This document shows positions 2,960-26,585 of a DNA stretch of 36,494 bases, one piece after another. Both the position numbers and the translations under genes were made by a program. The stretch's first letter is position 1, and the number at the start of each line of letters is the position of its first letter. The stretch lies in the IMG/VR virus record IMGVR_UViG_3300025093_000059, positions 1 through 36,494 of that record. One strand, written 5' to 3'. Origin of the DNA: a virus. A model generated the notes under the pieces. That model was not told the origin of the DNA, ran no database searches, and was given only the letters and a program-made list of their open reading frames with translations.

Positions 2960-2996
2960 CCCCTTATTATGTACAACACTAAACAAGGGGGAATAA

Positions 2997-3140
2997 ATGC
3001 CTAAATTAAAAGATTTGATCTTTCCGAAACCAAAAAAATACACAAAAAAAGAGTATGAAGATTTTGCCAAATCAATTGAAAGGGCAATAAAAAAAGAATT
3101 GTGGATTAAAAATACTCAAAAAATCAAGGGGGAAAAATAA
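2997..3140 (+). CDS. Small basic protein, 47 aa
   Basis: ATG 2997-2999 follows a strong ribosome site (AAGGGGGAA, 2984-2992), about 37 nt downstream of the promoter at 2931. The 47-residue product (MPKLKDLIFPKPKKYTKKEY) is very Lys-rich, with an amphipathic stretch in the middle. Its stop TAA shares an A with the ATG of the next gene (TAATG), so the two are translationally coupled. No family recognised; a small nucleic-acid-binding early protein is possible. Confidence 0.65.
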   Translation: MPKLKDLIFPKPKKYTKKEYEDFAKSIERAIKKELWIKNTQKIKGEK

Positions 3141-3595
3141 TGAGTTTTAAAAAATTTCAAGAGTCTAAAAAATTTATTACTGATAAAGATGATCCTACAT
3201 TGCGTGGTTTTATTTATTTTTCTCAACCGGATCATTCGCCATATTGTTATGAAAATCTTTTCATTGAATTAAATTTCAATCCGACAAAGGGAAATAAATA
3301 TTGCCTAACAATTTTAAATGATTCCTTTGGTTCGGATGATCTGGAATTGTTAGAAAAAAAACTGTACTTTTTTGCCATGGGCGAAGGGTGGGAAGATTTT
3401 TCTAATATATCTACGAAATTAAAACAGGTCAATATAGATTCTGATCAAATTATTCACTACGAATCTTGTGCATATTGTGGATCAGCAATGGATCAAGGGC
3501 AAACGTATTATTTTAATTCTAATGATGATGATGGGGATAATTTTTATTGCCATCCATCATGCGTTGAAATCCATCATTTAATTATTAATGAATAA
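3140..3595 (+). CDS. Hypothetical protein with C-terminal zinc-binding motif
   Basis: 151 residues, start coupled to the preceding stop. The C-terminal third holds C-A-Y-C (around residues 110-113) and Y-C-H-P-S-C (136-140), a likely zinc site, separated by an acidic Asn/Asp-rich loop (NSNDDDGDN). The N-terminal part is Phe/Lys/Asp rich and shows no domain I can name. The ribosome site is AAGGGGGAA again. The zinc-binding role is inferred from Cys spacing only. Confidence 0.65.
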   Translation: MSFKKFQESKKFITDKDDPTLRGFIYFSQPDHSPYCYENLFIELNFNPTKGNKYCLTILNDSFGSDDLELLEKKLYFFAMGEGWEDFSNISTKLKQVNIDSDQIIHYESCAYCGSAMDQGQTYYFNSNDDDGDNFYCHPSCVEIHHLIINE

Positions 3596-9437: not shown

Positions 9438-9739
9438 TGCACGGCCTCTTTAATATCAATTTTGTTGTCAACGTAGTACTGAATGAACATGGCGTTAACC
9501 GCTACCTTGGCAAGATGAGGTTCGGACCTGTCACCCGCTTCCCACTTCGCCAAATGTTCATAAAGATGATTCAGGACCGTCCCAATTGGCATTCCGGCTT
9601 TCCAATTGTCAGGGCCATGTGACAGGCATCCCTCATACATAACCACGCCCATTTCCCTGATAAAGTCTCTGACTAACAGATCATGGCGTACTTCCAATTT
9701 GTTGCGTGTTGCTCCGGTAGAATAGTTTTCTTTACTCAT
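9434..9739 (-). CDS. DUF5664 / dATP-dGTP diphosphohydrolase N-domain protein
   Basis: 101 residues matching a phage family known as DUF5664, named after the N-terminal domain of a dATP/dGTP diphosphohydrolase. Seen here are GATRNKLEVRHDLLVRDF near the start, MGVVMYEGCLSHGPDNWKAG in the centre, HLYEHLAKWEAGDRSEPHLAKV and a VNAMF helix. His and acidic residues in the last two helices could bind metal. By family it may act on nucleotides, which would suit its place beside a DNA methyltransferase, but the assignment is by pattern. Overlaps the methyltransferase C-part by 8 nt. Confidence 0.7.
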   Translation of the reverse strand: MSKENYSTGATRNKLEVRHDLLVRDFIREMGVVMYEGCLSHGPDNWKAGMPIGTVLNHLYEHLAKWEAGDRSEPHLAKVAVNAMFIQYYVDNKIDIKEAVQ

Positions 9740-9989
9740 TCATCAACCTTTCAAATAAAACTTTTAGTGCAATAGCTCCAGTAAGCGGGACGACCCCGTT
9801 TCCCAAAGCTTGTAGACGTTCTGATCTATAGGTATTGGCAAGCTCCAGCCAATTGGCATCCCCATCAGCCACTCTACAAAGGTCGGGGACAGCCTTCTCT
9901 TGAGCTGGGGCGAGGTCTGGTCGGTCATCGAGGATTCGTTGCCATCGCTCTGTTTCTCCTGGGCCAGGGGGCCAGTATTGTTGTTGCAT
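9732..9989 (-). CDS. Cytosine-5 methyltransferase, C-terminal part (frame A)
   Basis: 85 residues with the C-terminal signature of C5-methyltransferases: WPPGPGETERW, then DLAPAQ, LCRVADGD, and motif X as RSERLQALGNGVVPLTG. It lies in the same reading frame as the N-terminal part (10335-10865), but 345 nt containing several frame-A stops separate them. The ATG at 9987-9989 has a good ribosome site of its own (AAAGGA, 5 nt before it), so it can be made as a separate subunit. Frame A is open from 10037. It overlaps the frame-B protein by 226 nt. Read here as half of a split enzyme rather than a dead remnant, because its motifs are intact. Confidence 0.7.
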   Translation of the reverse strand: MQQQYWPPGPGETERWQRILDDRPDLAPAQEKAVPDLCRVADGDANWLELANTYRSERLQALGNGVVPLTGAIALKVLFERLMNE

Positions 9990-10867
9990 TGCAATCCTTT
10001 CATCACTACAGTTGTTAATGATTCTTGCGAGCCTTTCTTACCTCGGCTACGATCTTGATAGCCCTGCCTCACTTCCGTTGAGCATGGCGTAGGCCAATTA
10101 GCGTTGGCATAAATCCTTACTGCATCTGGGTCTACTTGTTCACGCAAATTACACGGACGCTTCCCAGACTTAGGTCGTCTGGCGTGTTTCACCAACGCTT
10201 CTGGACTCCTCTGCGGAAGATGATCCATTGTATTGGGTGTTGCCCAACTTGCCGACTGATCTCGTAATTTAATTTTAGGTGCTTCTGCATTCTTATACTT
10301 CTCGCTGTTTAAATCCTTCACACCACCAATTGGGTCAGAGGCACTGGGAGTACGCCAGGATGAAGACTCGTTTTCTAAGATGCGAGGCTCCCACATCTTT
10401 CGCTGAAAACACTCCCCATTCCGCATCGAACCCCATTTGGGCCAACTCTTTGAGTACGGTTGACATGGCTCTGTTAGAAAGGAGTCCTGTGACGTTTTCG
10501 ATAAAAACGTATCGTGGTCTAATTTCGCAAATAATTCGGCAGTATTCGTAGAACAACCCGGACCTGTTTCCTTGTTTGATTCCTTCCTGCTTTCCTGCGA
10601 CTGACAGGTCTTGGCAGGGGAAGCCACCAATGATTGTATCCACAACTCCAGCCCACGGTCTGCCGTTGAAGGTTGTAATGTCACTCCAGATAGGAGCTTC
10701 ATCCAGGGTCTTGTCTTCCATCCTCGCCACGAGTACGGACGAGGCGTAGGCTTCCCGCTCAACGTAACAAACAGTTCTCGACTCTGGAAAAACAAGCCCC
10801 ACTGACTTATCAAGTCCAGCGATTCCGCTGAAGAGGGACAATATGTTCTTGGGATGTATAGCCACAT
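9764..10867 (-). CDS. Frame-B overlapping protein with repeated W-x-T-P motifs
   Basis: An unbroken 367-codon frame from the ATG at 10865-10867, over the whole methyltransferase locus in another frame. It is not a simple shadow: it has motifs I know from a phage protein family annotated as hypothetical or methylase-associated. These are SPAKT (83-87), KLDHDTFLSKTSQ (115-127), WPKWGSMRNGE (142-152), WRTP (171-174), WATPNTMD (208-215), NLREQV (240-245), WPTP (258-261) and FVEWLMGMPIGW (330-341). The middle (10335-9989) has no open frame A, so there this protein is the only candidate product. The first 80 residues look unconstrained. It shares one ribosome site (AAAGG) with the GTG of frame A two bases downstream. 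Function unknown. Confidence 0.65.
   Translation of the reverse strand: MWLYIPRTYCPSSAESLDLISQWGLFFQSRELFVTLSGKPTPRPYSWRGWKTRPWMKLLSGVTLQPSTADRGLELWIQSLVASPAKTCQSQESRKESNKETGPGCSTNTAELFAKLDHDTFLSKTSQDSFLTEPCQPYSKSWPKWGSMRNGECFQRKMWEPRILENESSSWRTPSASDPIGGVKDLNSEKYKNAEAPKIKLRDQSASWATPNTMDHLPQRSPEALVKHARRPKSGKRPCNLREQVDPDAVRIYANANWPTPCSTEVRQGYQDRSRGKKGSQESLTTVVMKGLQCNNNTGPLAQEKQSDGNESSMTDQTSPQLKRRLSPTFVEWLMGMPIGWSLPIPIDQNVYKLWETGSSRLLELLH
10335..10865 (-). CDS. Cytosine-5 methyltransferase, catalytic part (frame A)
   Basis: 176 residues from a GTG start. Motif I is NILSLFSGIAGLD (AdoMet binding, 7-19). Motif IV is GGFPCQDLS with the catalytic Cys84. Motif VI is IENVTGL (Glu123) and motif VIII SHLRKRVFIL (Arg164, Arg166). 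It should bind AdoMet and attack C5 of cytosine, but it ends in a TGA right after motif VIII and lacks motifs IX-X, which lie in the same frame at 9732-9989. Together the two halves hold all the usual motifs. A two-subunit C5 methyltransferase (as in M.AquI) is a precedent. The target sequence is unknown; the usual role is protection of phage DNA from host restriction. Confidence 0.8.
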   Translation of the reverse strand: MAIHPKNILSLFSGIAGLDKSVGLVFPESRTVCYVEREAYASSVLVARMEDKTLDEAPIWSDITTFNGRPWAGVVDTIIGGFPCQDLSVAGKQEGIKQGNRSGLFYEYCRIICEIRPRYVFIENVTGLLSNRAMSTVLKELAQMGFDAEWGVFSAKDVGASHLRKRVFILAYSQCL

Positions 10868-10882
10868 TTTCGACCTTTGATT

Positions 10883-11086: not shown

Positions 11087-12145
11087 TTATCCATTCACTG
11101 CTTGAATTAAAGTCATCTTAGTCGGCTGGACCAGCAAATCCAAGGCTGCCTTAATCGGCTCCAATGTGGTCCGTGAATAAGTATCCGAAGTAATATCTCC
11201 GAATGAATGACCCATAATTCTTTTCCTGATTTGTAACTCAACGCCAAGATGTTCCAGCCTGGTATTAGCCGTGTGTCTCATACAATGCGGAGTTACATTT
11301 TGCAACCCTGCACGTTTGACTGCACTGCGGAAACCTTCACGGCTGTACTTGGTCATAGGTTTGCCCTGGCAAGTAAATACATGGGTAGGGTGTTTACCAC
11401 GTTGACGATCTACAATTGATTGAGCCACCGAATTCAATACAACTGCCTTATGCTGACCGTTCTTATGTTCTGATCCTGGAATGATAAACACCCCACCCAA
11501 ATCAGGAAGTTGATGATACCAACTCCATTGCAGCTTACATACCTCACCCGGTCTTGTTACAGTATGCAATTGAAATGTAGCAGCATCTTTCAGGTATTGT
11601 GGCAATTCACGCATGACCCGCACTTCTTCCTCGTAAGACAAAACATGAGACACCTTCTCATCCCCCTTTTCCTCAAGGTTGATGATAGGTCTGCGGTTCA
11701 TCCACGGCTTGCCATCCTCTTCCAGCCTGTAGCAATGGTTAAGGATCGCCCTGGCAACTTCCAATGTCCTGTTGATGCCACCTGACTTCATACCTTTGCG
11801 GTGACAAACAGTACGGAACTTATTAAATGTTGAATCGTAAATACTATCTAGTGGTGTGTTGGACTTAATGTACTTGGAGATAATTTTCAGATGACGCAAA
11901 TCTGTAGTGATATCACGCTTCTGTTTGGCTTTGTTCAGGTAATGAACACATCCATCATCCCAAGTCTTTTTCAAAGGCCGTCTGATATTTAACACTACTT
12001 CATCAAATATCTGGCGACTCTTTGCTTCGAGTACAGCTTCCGCCAACTTTAAACTGGTTTGTTTTGTACTCTCTCTGGTATAGATGCCGTGAATCGACTT
12101 ATCTATATGCCAGTATTTTCCACGCTTCTTAAGTCCGTGTGGCAT
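11087..12145 (-). CDS. int: Tyrosine-family phage integrase
   Basis: 352 residues. The catalytic residues of tyrosine recombinases are visible: Arg198 (TRPGE), Lys228 in the beta-hairpin, His287-x-x-Arg290 (HCMRH), His313 (MGHS) and nucleophile Tyr323 (DTYSR). The N-terminal part has an arm-binding-like region and a core-binding helical domain (about 60-150). It should recombine phage attP with the host attB, probably a tRNA-Glu gene, to insert the prophage. The start overlaps the excisionase-like gene by 43 nt, and the attP candidate lies just past its stop. Last gene of the leftward operon controlled from 14674. Confidence 0.93.
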   Translation of the reverse strand: MPHGLKKRGKYWHIDKSIHGIYTRESTKQTSLKLAEAVLEAKSRQIFDEVVLNIRRPLKKTWDDGCVHYLNKAKQKRDITTDLRHLKIISKYIKSNTPLDSIYDSTFNKFRTVCHRKGMKSGGINRTLEVARAILNHCYRLEEDGKPWMNRRPIINLEEKGDEKVSHVLSYEEEVRVMRELPQYLKDAATFQLHTVTRPGEVCKLQWSWYHQLPDLGGVFIIPGSEHKNGQHKAVVLNSVAQSIVDRQRGKHPTHVFTCQGKPMTKYSREGFRSAVKRAGLQNVTPHCMRHTANTRLEHLGVELQIRKRIMGHSFGDITSDTYSRTTLEPIKAALDLLVQPTKMTLIQAVNG

Positions 12146-12318: not shown

Positions 12319-12743
12319 ATTTTACGCCTGTATAAACTTGCACGATTATTTTTTTTACATTCAGGTGAACAAAACTTTGTCCCTTTTGCCGTACCCGGAT
12401 ATGTTATACCACAGCAGTCGCACTTCCTGTCAATTATTTTTTTAGTATATTTGTCATGGTATAACTTTTTAGCTCCAATTTTTTTGCACGGATCTGAACA
12501 AAATTTGGGTCGGTAGACATAAATAGGAATAGTTTTAGTAGTGCCACAAACGACACACTTAAATGTTTTAGTATGTATTCGCTTGATAGCCTCATGCTTG
12601 TTGCCCTGGATGACGATTGTGCCGTCATCCAGTTCAACCTCTTCCCTGTCAACATTCTTCCAGTGAAGTTCCTTGACCGTATCCACTGAAACAACTTTCT
12701 TCAGCCTATTTTTTCCATCATAAACCTTGACTGGGAATAGCAT
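12315..12743 (-). CDS. Zinc-finger protein with two FCS-type motifs
   Basis: 142 residues. The N-terminal half is beta-like and charged (LFPVKVYDGKNRLKKVVSV). The second half has two similar Cys modules: KCVVCG with KFCSDPCKK, and KCDCCG with KFCSPECKK, each likely to hold one zinc ion. Coupled on both sides (TAATG with the SSB gene, ATGA with xis). The Cys modules resemble those of phage proteins annotated as HNH-like or zinc-finger, but no H-N-H catalytic residues are visible. Probably DNA-binding; role unknown. Confidence 0.65.
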   Translation of the reverse strand: MLFPVKVYDGKNRLKKVVSVDTVKELHWKNVDREEVELDDGTIVIQGNKHEAIKRIHTKTFKCVVCGTTKTIPIYVYRPKFCSDPCKKIGAKKLYHDKYTKKIIDRKCDCCGITYPGTAKGTKFCSPECKKNNRASLYRRKI

Positions 12744-13432
12744 TAGAATCCTACTCCTTCCTCTTCAAACATTTCTTCAGCATCCGCCACAACTTCCTGC
12801 GTATAGCCTTCACATACTTCAAAGTCTACTGAAGCGGAACCACCGTATGGAACAAGATCAACCACCTGGACCCCCTTGAGGATCAGCTTGATTCCTATAT
12901 TGGCGGATACATAAGGAAAGATTTCAAACGCCACCTTCACCTGACTGCCATTGCCAACCTCAACGGTCATTGGCTTGTTCTGTGCATCACGGACCGTAAT
13001 CTTATTCTCAATGGTCTGAAGAACCTGACCGCTGGCTTTGTCCTTCTTATAGTAGCAACCGTAATCCCGGAACTTGAATTCCCATTCCCCTGTCGGGTCA
13101 CCCATGTCATCTAACACCTGGTAAAAAGGCAGATCGTTCTGCTCAACAGGATGGGCATCCAGAAATTTGTCTAAGGTGTCAAACTTAGCTTTCTGCTTGG
13201 GATGCTTTTCCAAGTGCTTCTTCATTCTTTCCTGGCCGACTACACGATGATGTGCAAACATCTGGTCAGTAATCAATTTTCGCAGCCCTTCTGATTCGGC
13301 ATCGCCAAATCTCAATTGAATGGAATACTCTCCTTCAGGATGGTCTGCGTTGGGAAACTTGGCATTAGCTTGTGGAGCGTGTACCTTTGCCCAATAAGCC
13401 GTGCCTGTCTCTGTGATGTGTCTTTCTCTCAT
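12743..13432 (-). CDS. Single-stranded DNA-binding protein (T7 gp2.5-like)
   Basis: 229 residues with an OB-fold-like beta-rich core (for example VKVAFEIFPYVSANIGIKLI) and a very acidic C-terminal tail ending in Phe (DAEEMFEEEGVGF). That tail is the hallmark by which SSBs such as T7 gp2.5 contact polymerase, helicase and nucleases. It starts by ATGA overlap with the exonuclease gene, so exonuclease and SSB are made together, as in recombination modules. It likely coats the ssDNA produced by the exonuclease and at the fork. Confidence 0.8.
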   Translation of the reverse strand: MRERHITETGTAYWAKVHAPQANAKFPNADHPEGEYSIQLRFGDAESEGLRKLITDQMFAHHRVVGQERMKKHLEKHPKQKAKFDTLDKFLDAHPVEQNDLPFYQVLDDMGDPTGEWEFKFRDYGCYYKKDKASGQVLQTIENKITVRDAQNKPMTVEVGNGSQVKVAFEIFPYVSANIGIKLILKGVQVVDLVPYGGSASVDFEVCEGYTQEVVADAEEMFEEEGVGF

Positions 13433-14277
13433 GCTACATTCTCCAGTTTAAAGTTGAATCGCCTTGATCCTGTTTTTGTTTCCTTGTAGGTCAACAAAGT
13501 TTCCCCTGAAGGCGATACCAGGGTTTCTGCGTCTTTAATTCGTTGGCGTATTTTGTTATCACATAACTCAAGTTGAGCTTTATATACATCCAACATTTCT
13601 TTATTCCTGGCACGGTCCTTGACATAGCCGTGCAGGGTGTCATCCGCCACTTGTACCTTTTCTGGCACAGATGACGGCCAAAGATGCTTTAATGTTGAGG
13701 TGGACAAATGGGACACATCAGGTTCGATGTCATCCTGGACTAATTGCCAAAAAGCTATTTCTCTCTGGAGCAAGTCAAATAGCTGGTCCTTGGTGAATTC
13801 CACTTCAAATATTTCATGGCGACCATGAGCCATGAAAAGAACGGAATAGTCCCATTTCATCCTGCCCGTAACCAAGGCATAATGCATGGTCTGCGGAAGA
13901 TAATAGTCCGGGACTCCGTTATCCCAGTCCTTCTCACTCCGCATGAATACGCATTTGCATTCCACACCACGATTGTAATCTCCAGCTACAATCCGGTCAG
14001 GATGTCCACCTATGAAGGAATATTGCTTCATATATATAGTACGATTTACCTTCCTACATTTACGGCCAGTTTCCTTCTCATACTTCTCCACGGCCAACGG
14101 TTCCCCGGCATGACCTAATTCCATCATCGTGTTGGGTTCAACCGTGTCAGGCTTGCGTCCTGTCTTTACCGCCCAGATGTCATACATATCAGCATATCTG
14201 TGTGTGCCAAGGATAGCTGCTGCATCTGACCCGGTAATACATTTTGTTCTGGCCGCTATTTGTTTTTCAGTTAACAT
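13429..14277 (-). CDS. YqaJ / lambda-type recombination exonuclease
   Basis: 282 residues of the YqaJ viral recombinase family. Motifs: ITGSDAAAILG (14-24), MMELGHAGEP with Glu53, GHPDRIVAG (catalytic Asp94), VECKC (E-x-K, Glu106 and Lys108) and a following YYLPQ segment. By family it degrades one strand of duplex DNA from ends, feeding recombination or single-strand annealing. No separate annealing protein is obvious; the gp2.5-like SSB next door may do the annealing. Starts 6 nt after the small membrane peptide gene. Confidence 0.88.
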   Translation of the reverse strand: MLTEKQIAARTKCITGSDAAAILGTHRYADMYDIWAVKTGRKPDTVEPNTMMELGHAGEPLAVEKYEKETGRKCRKVNRTIYMKQYSFIGGHPDRIVAGDYNRGVECKCVFMRSEKDWDNGVPDYYLPQTMHYALVTGRMKWDYSVLFMAHGRHEIFEVEFTKDQLFDLLQREIAFWQLVQDDIEPDVSHLSTSTLKHLWPSSVPEKVQVADDTLHGYVKDRARNKEMLDVYKAQLELCDNKIRQRIKDAETLVSPSGETLLTYKETKTGSRRFNFKLENVA

Positions 14278-23063: not shown

Positions 23064-26000
23064 CTATCGATTCCTTGGTGTGGTGGTAACTTTGTCAATA
23101 GTCTCTTCAATGAGCCGAATACGGGCGTTAATTGACTCATCGGATAGCATCTTTGCAAGCTCTGGATATTTCAAATCTCCATTTGCATCCTTCAACTCCA
23201 CTAACGCTTGTGCTGCCTTGGCACGTTCTAAATGAACAATGCCCTGGATGTAATCGGCCTTGCCTATATCTGGCATCTCTAGAAAAAATTGTTCTTTGAC
23301 ATCTTCCTCTAAAATTTTAAACGCTGATTCACCAGCAAGAACAACATATTCGTGATACTCTTCAGGCTTCAGACGAATAGCAGTTGGCATCTTGCTTCTA
23401 TTGCCAGGGATATTAGGGATGCCTAAAGCTTCATTCGATATAACAGGTTCTGGCAAACCCACTGGTACTTTTAATTCCAAAATCCAATCGTCTACAGGAC
23501 TGTCCTTCTTCGTTTGAATAAAGAATGGAGATAATGGATCAAACCCCACTCCCTTCTCATAGGCCACTTCTTCTCCCCACATATTCACACGGGGTGGCAA
23601 ATCCTCACTATAACCAGGAAGGTTAGCTTTAATATTGTTCAACGTGCGGAATAAGACTTCCCCAGAATCAGCCAGTGAATTTCCAAACTCTTCACCAAAT
23701 TGACTGACAAACTCATTGCGTAAAAATTCCGGGTCAACAGTCTTCGTATCCCGCAAGGTTGGGTCTGTAACTTTTTCCAAATCCCGAAAGACTCCACCAA
23801 ACGGAACAACGCTACTCCCTAAGTTTTCAAAAAACTTACTTCTGCCTTCCTGAAATGCCAGCATAAAATCAGAAACACTTTTAGCAAATGTCTGACTTAA
23901 AAAATGCTGGCTCATGGTCAACACAAATCCCTGGGCAAAGGCAATACGTTCACCCTCTGAAATCTGGTCAGCAATCTCAACAAAGTCCGCCATCATCCCA
24001 GCGAAGAATGCAATTGGTTCGGCACGTTGAATACTTATATGTCTCTCTTTCCCGTCCTTGCCCATCACCACAACAGAATAAGGCTGATTCCCTTTTCTTC
24101 GCCATGCCTCTCGCATCTTAGCGTTTTGAGGACCGTTACCTGTTAATCCCCCACCTAACGCAAGCGATAGGAATGCCATAGACGCTGCTGTACCAGTGGC
24201 AATTCGTGCCTGGGCTAAATCCGCCTTAGCACCGCCAGCAGCAATGTCAGCCCGAATCTTTTTACTGAACAATGCCAGTGGTGTTCTTTCCCCGGAAAAC
24301 TTTGCCAGGTTAACCAACACATTATGGAACGGAACAACATATCGACCCAGCGGAGTAGAATGGATAAAGTCGTGCATCTTCTTACCAGCCTGACCCAACT
24401 CCTTGGTGAATGTGGCATAGTCTGCAAAATTCTCTGCGTTTGCTTTAATGGATGGCGAAGGATTTTCTAACAACTGGGCAATACGTTCATTTAATGCCTT
24501 CTTGCCTAACAAGTGTTTTCCTTCAGACATTGCGGTCCTATGAGCCTGGGCATAAATCTCTGCCGTGTACCCATTCATCTTAAAGTACTCATCCATCGTC
24601 AAAAGCAATTTGCCCTGGCTAGACATAAGATGCCCCGCCATATCAGCCCCTTGGTACATGAAACTGCCTTCCTTCAAGCCAAAGTTTTTCCCGGTAATAG
24701 CCCTAACATTTGCCTGATCAAGCTTCTGGAATTGAGAAGCTGGAATTTCTTTCAAGGAAGCAACACGCCCTAAATTTTTTGCCAACACAGCAAAGTTTTT
24801 TGGCTGGGACATAAGCATTCCATACAACATGGATTGAGCTTCCCCCGCCTGGACTCCCGCTGCCGAACCACCAAACATACGCTTTGTTCTGCGTATTTGT
24901 GCTGCTACGCCACGCTCAACAGTTTGCAAACCAATATTCATGACGTTGCCAGCAATGTTGACAACATGGGTTTTGATACCAAACAAAGAGTTGACCCACG
25001 CTTCAAAAAACATATCAGCACCACCAAGACGCTTGGCTTCCTTCATCACAGCTTCTGGGTTAGTCTCACGCCACTTCTGTGCAAATGCCAAAGGGTCAAT
25101 ATTGTCATCGACCTGGCGTTGCATTTGCTCACCAACAGACGCAACTTTCTGCCCCTTACCCAAGTCACCTTTCTTCAGGCGATTGCGTATTGCCAAATCC
25201 CGACCAGCAGCCTCACTAAATCTTGCTGATTGCTCCTCAATCACATCCATGTGAAACCGGAATTGCTGTAATGCAGCTTCCGCAGAAGCCTCGCCACCTT
25301 CCCTAGCTAAATCATCAATACGCTGGAACGATGCTTGGCGGAGCAGTGCAAATTCAATTTCATCAACACGGTTTAATTTTTTATTCGGATCAAACTCCAG
25401 TAACCGTTTTGCCTCACCTTCAGGGTCTGCAAAAAACTTCTCTCTGGCTTTGAGTTCATCCGCGGCCTGTATTGCAACTTCACGGCCTTTCTTATTTTTC
25501 TTGATAGTCGGTATCCCCTGATCATCAAGAACTGAACGCTCTTTTAAAGTCGCCTCAAGTTCATCGCTAATCTTGCGAAGAATCTTTTCATTATTAATTT
25601 TTTCAAACGGCAACTGCATCGCAGAGATGTCATGGACCTGACCGCCAAATGTTGCCTGAACACCAGGAGCGACATCGGCAACCTCATCCACTTGCTTCAC
25701 CCCAGCCTCTACCCCTTCTTCTACAGCATCAAAAGTTCTTCCTGGGCTTTGAAACCGCTTCAGCAATCTTGCTAATCCAGCCCCCAACTCTAATGGGATA
25801 GCGATCCCGATACCCTCGCCAGCACTTTTTAAAGCTTTGGCAAACGTGCTGTCATCTGATTTGGCTGCCAAAAAATCAGTAATGGGATTCCGAAACGGTG
25901 AACCCTCTGGCACAAATTCATTAAACATATTGCTTAAGTTGTTATCCAGGTCCATTGAAACCAGATCAGCCCCCACACCACTCCCAAATGTATTGGCCCC

Positions 26001-26585
26001 CATACCACGAAATGTCATCATCGATGTGGCAAAGGCGGTCAACCCTCGAAGCAACTGCACTCCGGTTCCACCCTTTCGATCCATTGTGCCAATAGGGACA
26101 TCAATGCGTCCGCTAAGTAACCCCCCCGCACCAATATCCCCAAAGAAATTTTCTGTTCCAAAAAACTGGTCCGCCTCTTCCAAATATTGCTGAACCGTTT
26201 TTCCACCAATCTCTGTGTCTCGTAATTCCTGCCCCGCAGCCGTAATATTTGTAGCACTGTTGAAAAATGCATCTGTGGGTCCGCCAAAAACAATCTCGCC
26301 CAATGCCCTGGCCGTGGAAATTCCTTCTGGCTCTGGAATGATTCCAGCCTGTGTCACAGGGGTATCCGCCTCACCCACAAATCCAAGAGCCTCTCCTTCA
26401 GGTGTACCCTCAAATGCTTCCTGCATCATTTGAGTCACAGTCTCTTCCTTGACCTTGAGCGATTGTTCTGTAAAGGTTGCCTCTAAATCAACCTGTGGAG
26501 CTTGCTTGGTCAATGTAATGGTCCCATCAACAGCCAGGGGATTTTTACTTGCTTGGGCCACTTTCACCCCCTTTTCTACGCTCAA
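23064..26585 (-). CDS. Large internal virion protein (T7 gp16 position)
   Basis: 1173 residues, mostly helical. N-terminal half: polar, with long charged helices (EKINNEKILRKISDELEATL, around 325-345). Centre: FGIKTHVVNIAGNVMNIGLQ (about 530-550), a motif I know from giant ejection proteins of podoviruses. C-terminal third includes Ala/Gly-rich helices (AASMAFLSLALGGGL) that could cross a membrane. There is no lytic transglycosylase motif as in T7 gp16. By position and size it should be ejected with gp14/gp15-like partners to form the DNA channel. It overlaps the gp15-like gene by 41 nt. Confidence 0.8.
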   Translation of the reverse strand: MSVEKGVKVAQASKNPLAVDGTITLTKQAPQVDLEATFTEQSLKVKEETVTQMMQEAFEGTPEGEALGFVGEADTPVTQAGIIPEPEGISTARALGEIVFGGPTDAFFNSATNITAAGQELRDTEIGGKTVQQYLEEADQFFGTENFFGDIGAGGLLSGRIDVPIGTMDRKGGTGVQLLRGLTAFATSMMTFRGMGANTFGSGVGADLVSMDLDNNLSNMFNEFVPEGSPFRNPITDFLAAKSDDSTFAKALKSAGEGIGIAIPLELGAGLARLLKRFQSPGRTFDAVEEGVEAGVKQVDEVADVAPGVQATFGGQVHDISAMQLPFEKINNEKILRKISDELEATLKERSVLDDQGIPTIKKNKKGREVAIQAADELKAREKFFADPEGEAKRLLEFDPNKKLNRVDEIEFALLRQASFQRIDDLAREGGEASAEAALQQFRFHMDVIEEQSARFSEAAGRDLAIRNRLKKGDLGKGQKVASVGEQMQRQVDDNIDPLAFAQKWRETNPEAVMKEAKRLGGADMFFEAWVNSLFGIKTHVVNIAGNVMNIGLQTVERGVAAQIRRTKRMFGGSAAGVQAGEAQSMLYGMLMSQPKNFAVLAKNLGRVASLKEIPASQFQKLDQANVRAITGKNFGLKEGSFMYQGADMAGHLMSSQGKLLLTMDEYFKMNGYTAEIYAQAHRTAMSEGKHLLGKKALNERIAQLLENPSPSIKANAENFADYATFTKELGQAGKKMHDFIHSTPLGRYVVPFHNVLVNLAKFSGERTPLALFSKKIRADIAAGGAKADLAQARIATGTAASMAFLSLALGGGLTGNGPQNAKMREAWRRKGNQPYSVVVMGKDGKERHISIQRAEPIAFFAGMMADFVEIADQISEGERIAFAQGFVLTMSQHFLSQTFAKSVSDFMLAFQEGRSKFFENLGSSVVPFGGVFRDLEKVTDPTLRDTKTVDPEFLRNEFVSQFGEEFGNSLADSGEVLFRTLNNIKANLPGYSEDLPPRVNMWGEEVAYEKGVGFDPLSPFFIQTKKDSPVDDWILELKVPVGLPEPVISNEALGIPNIPGNRSKMPTAIRLKPEEYHEYVVLAGESAFKILEEDVKEQFFLEMPDIGKADYIQGIVHLERAKAAQALVELKDANGDLKYPELAKMLSDESINARIRLIEETIDKVTTTPRNR

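Follow-up and report, generated by a model that had tools for sequence, protein, structure and literature searches.

The window, i.e. the whole stretch of 36,494 nucleotides of viral DNA that was analyzed, carries a methyltransferase locus on its minus strand which is open in two overlapping frames. The frame with the catalytic motifs is called A (pieces A-N and A-C) and the frame displaced from it by +1 is called B. The following features were found.

10335..10865, minus strand: A-N, the catalytic piece, 176 aa, GTG start, with the C5-methyltransferase motifs I (LSLFSGIAGLD), IV (GGFPCQDLS), VI (ENV) and VIII (RKRVFIL)
9732..9989, minus strand: A-C, an ORF of 85 aa back in frame A with its own ATG, containing YWPPGP..W..IL..RPDLAPA and motif X
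9786..9806, minus strand: motif X, LGNGVVP, frame A, from translation
9764..10867, minus strand: B, 367 aa, ATG start, +1 frame of A; its N half overprints motifs I–VIII, its C half is assigned by homology to the variable/recognition region and motif IX
9893..10360, minus strand: W-x-TP repeats in B, the predicted variable (target recognition) region displaced by +1; borders approximate
9842..9892, minus strand: motif IX, frame B, LSPTFVEWLMGMPIGWS; the identical bases encode CRVADGDAN in frame A
9990..10334, minus strand: former frame-A linker with nine internal stops, coding in frame B only
10863..10867, minus strand: ATGTG, overlapping start codons, B at ATG and A at GTG two bases on
10874..10878, minus strand: AAAGG, ribosome-binding-like sequence upstream of the double start, common to A-N and B
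9995..9999, minus strand: AAGGA, ribosome-binding site of A-C, five bases before its ATG

A-N matched PF00145 (2e-37) and TIGR00675 (2.9e-31), and A-C matched the C-terminus of the methyltransferase family phrog_29583 (6.5e-10). B matched phrog_1008 (2.5e-23) and gave no match in Pfam or NCBIfam. The parts of a C5 methyltransferase (PF00145) are distributed in the window with motifs I, IV, VI and VIII on A-N, motif X on A-C, and the variable region and motif IX on B; motif X is present in frame A and motif IX is absent from it. Between A-N and A-C ten in-frame stops were counted in frame A, including the terminal stop of A-N, where the original prediction had given at least five, and B is clean over the same stretch. 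The ORFs with their coordinates, the ATGTG start and the motifs in both frames were all confirmed as it had described them. The same is true for the ribosome sites, one before ATGTG (AAAGG, weaker than the AAGGA of A-C) and a separate one for the C-terminal frame-A part. A sequencing error as the source of the broken frame A was ruled out by the ten stops, the clean frame B and the same state in two relatives, L009 and L100 (L numbers denote loci of the comparison). The neighboring genes (11087-12145, 12743-14277, 23064-26585) were read as integrase, ssDNA-annealing protein, RecE-like exonuclease and large internal virion protein, and judging by them the window phage is temperate and tailed. 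A tRNA search of the window found none.

Searching phage records with B by tblastn yielded ten phages; wherever the locus was read out, both frames were open across most of the overlap. In the Acidovorax phage Alfacinha3, A and B comprise about 385 codons each, starting from ATGTG. Scans of IMG/VR contributed 80 and 10 loci. B was found in the +1 frame of A in 98 of the 98 loci of the B search; because the loci of this first set had been chosen by B, a search with A only was run, and here B was in the +1 frame of A in 18 of 19 loci. Using one B protein against named phages, 116 records were obtained at 1e-5 and 307 at 1e-3; another B protein gave 539 records, mostly from actinophages. The dual-frame methyltransferase arrangement is present in hundreds of phage records, where usually one frame was missed or both were labelled “DNA methyltransferase.” The phrog_1008 family, which carries this label, is the frame-B family, and its annotation is silent on the +1 position within a methyltransferase. 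An internal gene was annotated in the Paenibacillus larvae phages Diva (gp50, “g49 internal gene”) and Rani (gp51, “g50 Internal gene”), and in the E. coli phage K1ind1 ORF28 was annotated inside ORF29. These are the B ORFs inside the methyltransferases, and the annotators give no identity for them. A literature search for an account of this phage overlap, with most subscription journals outside its reach, returned nothing relevant.

In order to separate frame B from a by-product of frame A, stops and profile scores were compared with shuffled sequences. The 115 middle codons of the window locus contained 9 stops in frame A, 10 in the third frame and 0 in frame B, and the probability of an open frame across them from base composition was 0.0012. 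After shuffling the synonymous codons of the window A-N, frame B was open in 0.5% of the shuffles (mean 3.7 stops); the third frame over A-N had 8 stops versus 7.6 expected. The B-profile score of the window, 173.7 bits, was higher than all 500 shuffles (mean 99.7, maximum 136.1). The same treatment of 81 A-intact loci gave 256 observed versus 617 expected stops in the +1 frame, a 2.4-fold depletion, while the +2 control was not depleted (1449 observed versus 1387 expected). In each of 67 loci outside the profile-building set the B score exceeded every one of 100 shuffles. Pure chance or codon bias as the source of frame B was ruled out by the shuffles and the +2 control. Shuffled A codons still reached 40–115 bits against the B profile across loci, and the window shuffles still scored about 100 bits because part of the motif conservation in B (SPAKT, MRNG) is forced by the amino acids of A. 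The conserved motifs that had been claimed for both frames are real in B beyond the shuffles, but for SPAKT and MRNG the share forced by A had not been allowed for.

Selection was measured for 30 independent pairs of A-intact loci by scoring every change for its consequences in both frames, which gives dN/dS-like rates. These are Jukes-Cantor values with no transition weighting, so that the controls matter more than the absolute values. Opposite motifs I–VIII the rate was 0.20 (0.17–0.23) for A and 0.64 (0.56–0.72) for B, compared to 0.88 (0.70–1.11) for the non-coding +1 frame upstream of short B ORFs and 1.31 for the +2 frame. In the middle B was at 0.24 (0.18–0.30) and A at 1.16 (1.01–1.31), i.e. 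neutral even where open. At the 3′ end 0.36 was found for B and 0.75 (0.63–0.92) for A. The pair L036–L044, in which frame A is split, gave 0.06 for B and 1.12 for A in the middle, and 0.35 for B and 0.33 for A at the 3′ end. A weaker contrast was observed for the more diverged pair of the window and L009 (middle B 0.45, A 0.71). The selected frame switches at the motif VIII border, with A selected upstream, B in the middle and both at the 3′ end, and the middle of A serves as a passive linker, also in those phages in which it contains no stops. The comparison of dN/dS per frame suggested with the original prediction showed purifying selection in both frames opposite motifs I–VIII and at the 3′ end, as dual coding implies, and in B alone in the middle, where frame A is neutral. 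Overprinting proper is confined to the N half of B, which is weakly constrained. That B is untranslated, its openness and motifs being a by-product of the amino acids and codon usage of A, is almost certainly wrong: the scores of the shuffles and an MRNG-like +1 motif opposite motifs VI–VIII also in single-frame relatives speak for it, but every locus stood above all its shuffles, stops were depleted in the +1 and not in the +2 frame, and B has no stops and is under selection in regions where A has many, as in the middle of L036–L044.

The nature of the C half of B became visible from relatives carrying motifs I–VIII, the PTP repeats, EWMMG (motif IX) and GNGVV (motif X) all in one frame. Such single-frame methyltransferases are Ramsey gp69, Daenerys gp70, prophiFVLQ01-1 gp6 and gp40 of the Rothia phage Spartoi. 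Spartoi gp40 matches PF00145 over positions 3–321, nearly its full length, and its TPNTMD...NLREEV parallels TPNTMD...NLREQV in the window B. The two-ORF enzymes of actinophages (Kampy gp78/gp77, Firecracker gp6/gp5, Vash gp32/gp33) consist of A-N followed by a +1 ORF with PTP repeats, the EWMMG motif and motif X. A B profile built without actinophages matched the C half of the single-frame enzymes at 5e-15 to 1e-8, and hhalign of B versus their C-termini, i.e. the motif IX segment (LNPxFVEWLMGxPxGW in the B family), gave 97.7% with an E-value of 1.4e-12. Structure comparison gave L147, a single-frame relative, a fold like that of M.HhaI (Z 21.9 over 260 residues, rmsd 4.1). The single-frame LSPRFAEWMMGLPDGW, equivalent to motif IX of B, was collinear with M.HhaI 271–307 LHPRECARVMGYPDSY and followed by motif X, in an alignment that is weak by sequence score alone. 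Furthermore, phrog_116 (“DNA methyltransferase”) combines motifs I–VIII and a B-type C half in one profile. From the in-frame homologues, the profile, hhalign, the collinearity with M.HhaI and phrog_116 we conclude that the C half of B represents, by its sequence, the variable region and motif IX of the methyltransferase itself. The label “recognition region” is a putative one, taken from the position between motifs VIII and IX and from the selection and not from a fold. AlphaFold of B alone reached a pLDDT of 60 and a pTM of 0.29, with the N half predicted mostly disordered. This predicted structure had no match in the PDB, and a PDB sequence search with the B profile found none. The single-frame model likewise gave no confident fold for the PTP region. 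A poor fold of B alone would be expected for a piece needing a partner, but it is not evidence for that. A tblastn search with the B C-terminus of L052 in phages gave no match.

The original prediction had assigned the motifs of B to another phage family and had proposed that the methyltransferase gene gave rise to a second protein and itself survived as a split enzyme. Dual coding, the conservation of both frames and the split enzyme were supported. The W-x-TP repeats and FVEWLMG, however, turned out to be the variable region and motif IX of the methyltransferase. Overprinting from the methyltransferase gene holds for the N half of B opposite motifs I–VIII, but the C half is the enzyme's own region. 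The proposed polarity fails, as frame A is the unselected reading in the middle and the C half is in-frame in Ramsey gp69, Spartoi gp40 and prophiFVLQ01-1 gp6. Homologues with an intact frame A and a frame B full of stops, named in advance as refuting evidence, do occur, but frame A carries the recognition region and motif IX there. If B were a new protein unrelated to the methyltransferase, with a separate function and merely tolerated by the enzyme, the missing Pfam, NCBIfam and PDB matches and an overprinted, mildly selected N half would fit. We regard this as very unlikely, since the C half is homologous to single-frame enzymes in their variable region and motif IX, and frame A lacks motif IX and is neutral in the middle.

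The architectures of 144 loci were recorded by regular expressions, which makes the census approximate; for the tree, some of the labels were revised manually. In 89 loci the variable region and motif IX were found in B and motif X in A; 6 loci showed the same distribution with a broken A linker. A total of 10 loci had the variable region, IX and X all in B, and 8 had everything in one frame, the rest being mixed or unscored. In this pattern census motif X was in frame A in most of the 144 loci. Single indels shifting A and B together (L059, L101, L163/L164) look like errors or fresh frameshifts. In the A-N tree at least four separate breaks of the linker were found, with the flanks kept. Single-frame forms fall within a single actinophage clade that also contains split forms, and the tree does not say whether the single-frame or the split form came first. 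A-C was conserved in frame A with an ATG start in L009, L100, L036 and L044. A separate ATG for the motif X piece, together with a Shine-Dalgarno-like site (AAGGA or GGAG), is located just 5′ of the conserved YWPPGP-type segment in the window, L009 and L100. With ten stops in frame A, the window copy might be decaying, with B as a remnant and no working enzyme. This is rather improbable, since A-N, A-C and B are all conserved across the window, L009 and L100, the start and ribosome site of A-C are retained, the 3′ end of L036–L044 is selected in both frames, and the flanks were kept at each of the linker breaks.

The start codons of A and B were at most 7 bases apart in about 65 loci. The commonest pairs were RTGAATG, with A first and B four bases later, and ATGTG, with B first and A two bases later, and they were usually preceded by one purine-rich site. 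As B is exactly +1 of A, programmed +1 frameshifting might fuse A-N to the C half of B and give one polypeptide instead of separate chains. The window A-N terminates in CTC TGA C (10332-10338), similar to the prfB +1 site, and in many split relatives frame A likewise terminates at TGA C directly behind motif VIII. The end of A-N was examined for a conserved frameshift signal and none was found: the TGA C can be explained by the conserved Asp of PTPxAxD in B, and the preceding codons vary. Moreover, in about 90 relatives frame A runs uninterrupted as far as motif X, and both the start of B beside that of A and the constraint on its N half would be needless under frameshifting. We consider frameshifting unlikely.

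The best explanation, with a probability of roughly 0.8, is that the locus encodes one cytosine-C5 DNA methyltransferase made as separate chains from two overlapping frames. From the frames, the homology, the selection pattern and the starts we infer production of all chains, their assembly and DNA methylation by the complex. Frame A would provide the large catalytic domain, i.e. motifs I–VIII plus motif X at its 3′ end, with the AdoMet site and catalysis. Frame B would provide the small domain with the variable target-recognition region and motif IX as recognition surface. The overlapping starts behind one ribosome site would allow both to be made from one message, probably at a fixed ratio, and the A and B chains would most likely join to form a single enzyme. 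The overprinted extension formed by the N half of B is likely a tether or assembly segment. In most relatives A would be one chain, in which the stretch opposite the recognition region serves as a passive linker. In the clade of the window this linker is filled with stops, so that A would be made in two pieces, the motif X piece from its own start. For this clade we tentatively propose, at somewhat less than even odds, that the three chains A-N, B and A-C form one methyltransferase and that the N half of B is a new segment joining the catalytic and recognition chains during their synthesis from the overlapping starts. Methylation by the complex would probably serve the self-protection of the phage against restriction.

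Active C5 enzymes that are split in nature, with motif IX, or IX–X, carried by a second chain, have been described (PMC3404938). M.EcoHK31I (YGGCCR) has motifs I–VIII and X on the large chain and IX on the small chain, and M.AquI (CYCGRG) is split after motif VIII with IX–X on the second chain (PMC3404938). The A-intact relatives, 89 of 144, resemble M.EcoHK31I in having I–VIII plus X on one chain and IX on the other. The small chain of M.EcoHK31I is reportedly read from a different frame that overlaps that of the large chain, an observation ascribed to Lee, Kam and Shaw in 1995. However, the predicted recognition domain of M.EcoHK31I is on its large chain, whereas here the variable region is in frame B and A is neutral there. 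In addition, B reaches back over all of I–VIII to an overlapping start, the window clade has A cut in two with I–VIII and X on separate ORFs, and the setting is a phage instead of restriction-modification. The split of M.AquI lies within the variable region, and no deep overlap is known for it. Kampy gp78/gp77, Vash and L052 share with M.AquI the motifs I–VIII on one chain and IX–X on the other, whereas the window has IX in B and X on a third ORF, A-C, thus on neither B nor A-N. Overall the locus would work like M.EcoHK31I, from which it differs by the variable region in B, the overprinting of the whole catalytic half by B, the shared starts and the three-piece state.

The arrangement would represent a widespread case of one enzyme with its two domains divided over two frames, the selected frame switching mid-gene. 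The natural series of one-frame, split, dual-frame and three-piece forms offers a system for studying the rise and persistence of overlapping genes, and natural split methyltransferases become easy to find. For annotation it is a warning: where a phage methyltransferase lacks its recognition domain, this domain may in many cases sit one frame over. In L122, L121, L125 and hundreds of actinophage records (mycobacteriophage, Gordonia and Streptomyces phages) neighboring genes are both called “DNA methylase.” These adjacent genes are probably two halves of one enzyme split over two frames.

Several loci deviated from these architectures. L137-L140 and L142-L146 have motifs IX and X in frame A and the PTP variable region in the +1 frame, another division between frames, and one that counts against the best explanation. 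In L028 (IMGVR_UViG_3300037137_000470, approximately 2960-3500) an HNH-endonuclease-like frame is present as an insertion close to the 3′ end of the A/B overlap; a portion of the C-terminus of B is repeated on either side of it, and motif X has moved to the B frame. A large internal deletion in L016 (2291-2727) removes motifs IV–VIII of A with both frames still open; the B start, one W-x-TP, FVEWLMG and motif X of A are kept, and the product may be a remnant or an interfering partial enzyme. L036 (2372-3898) and L044 (2494-4141) contain many W-x-TP units in B ORFs of 509 and 549 codons, respectively, which suggests that the recognition repeats are modular and could allow for several target sequences.
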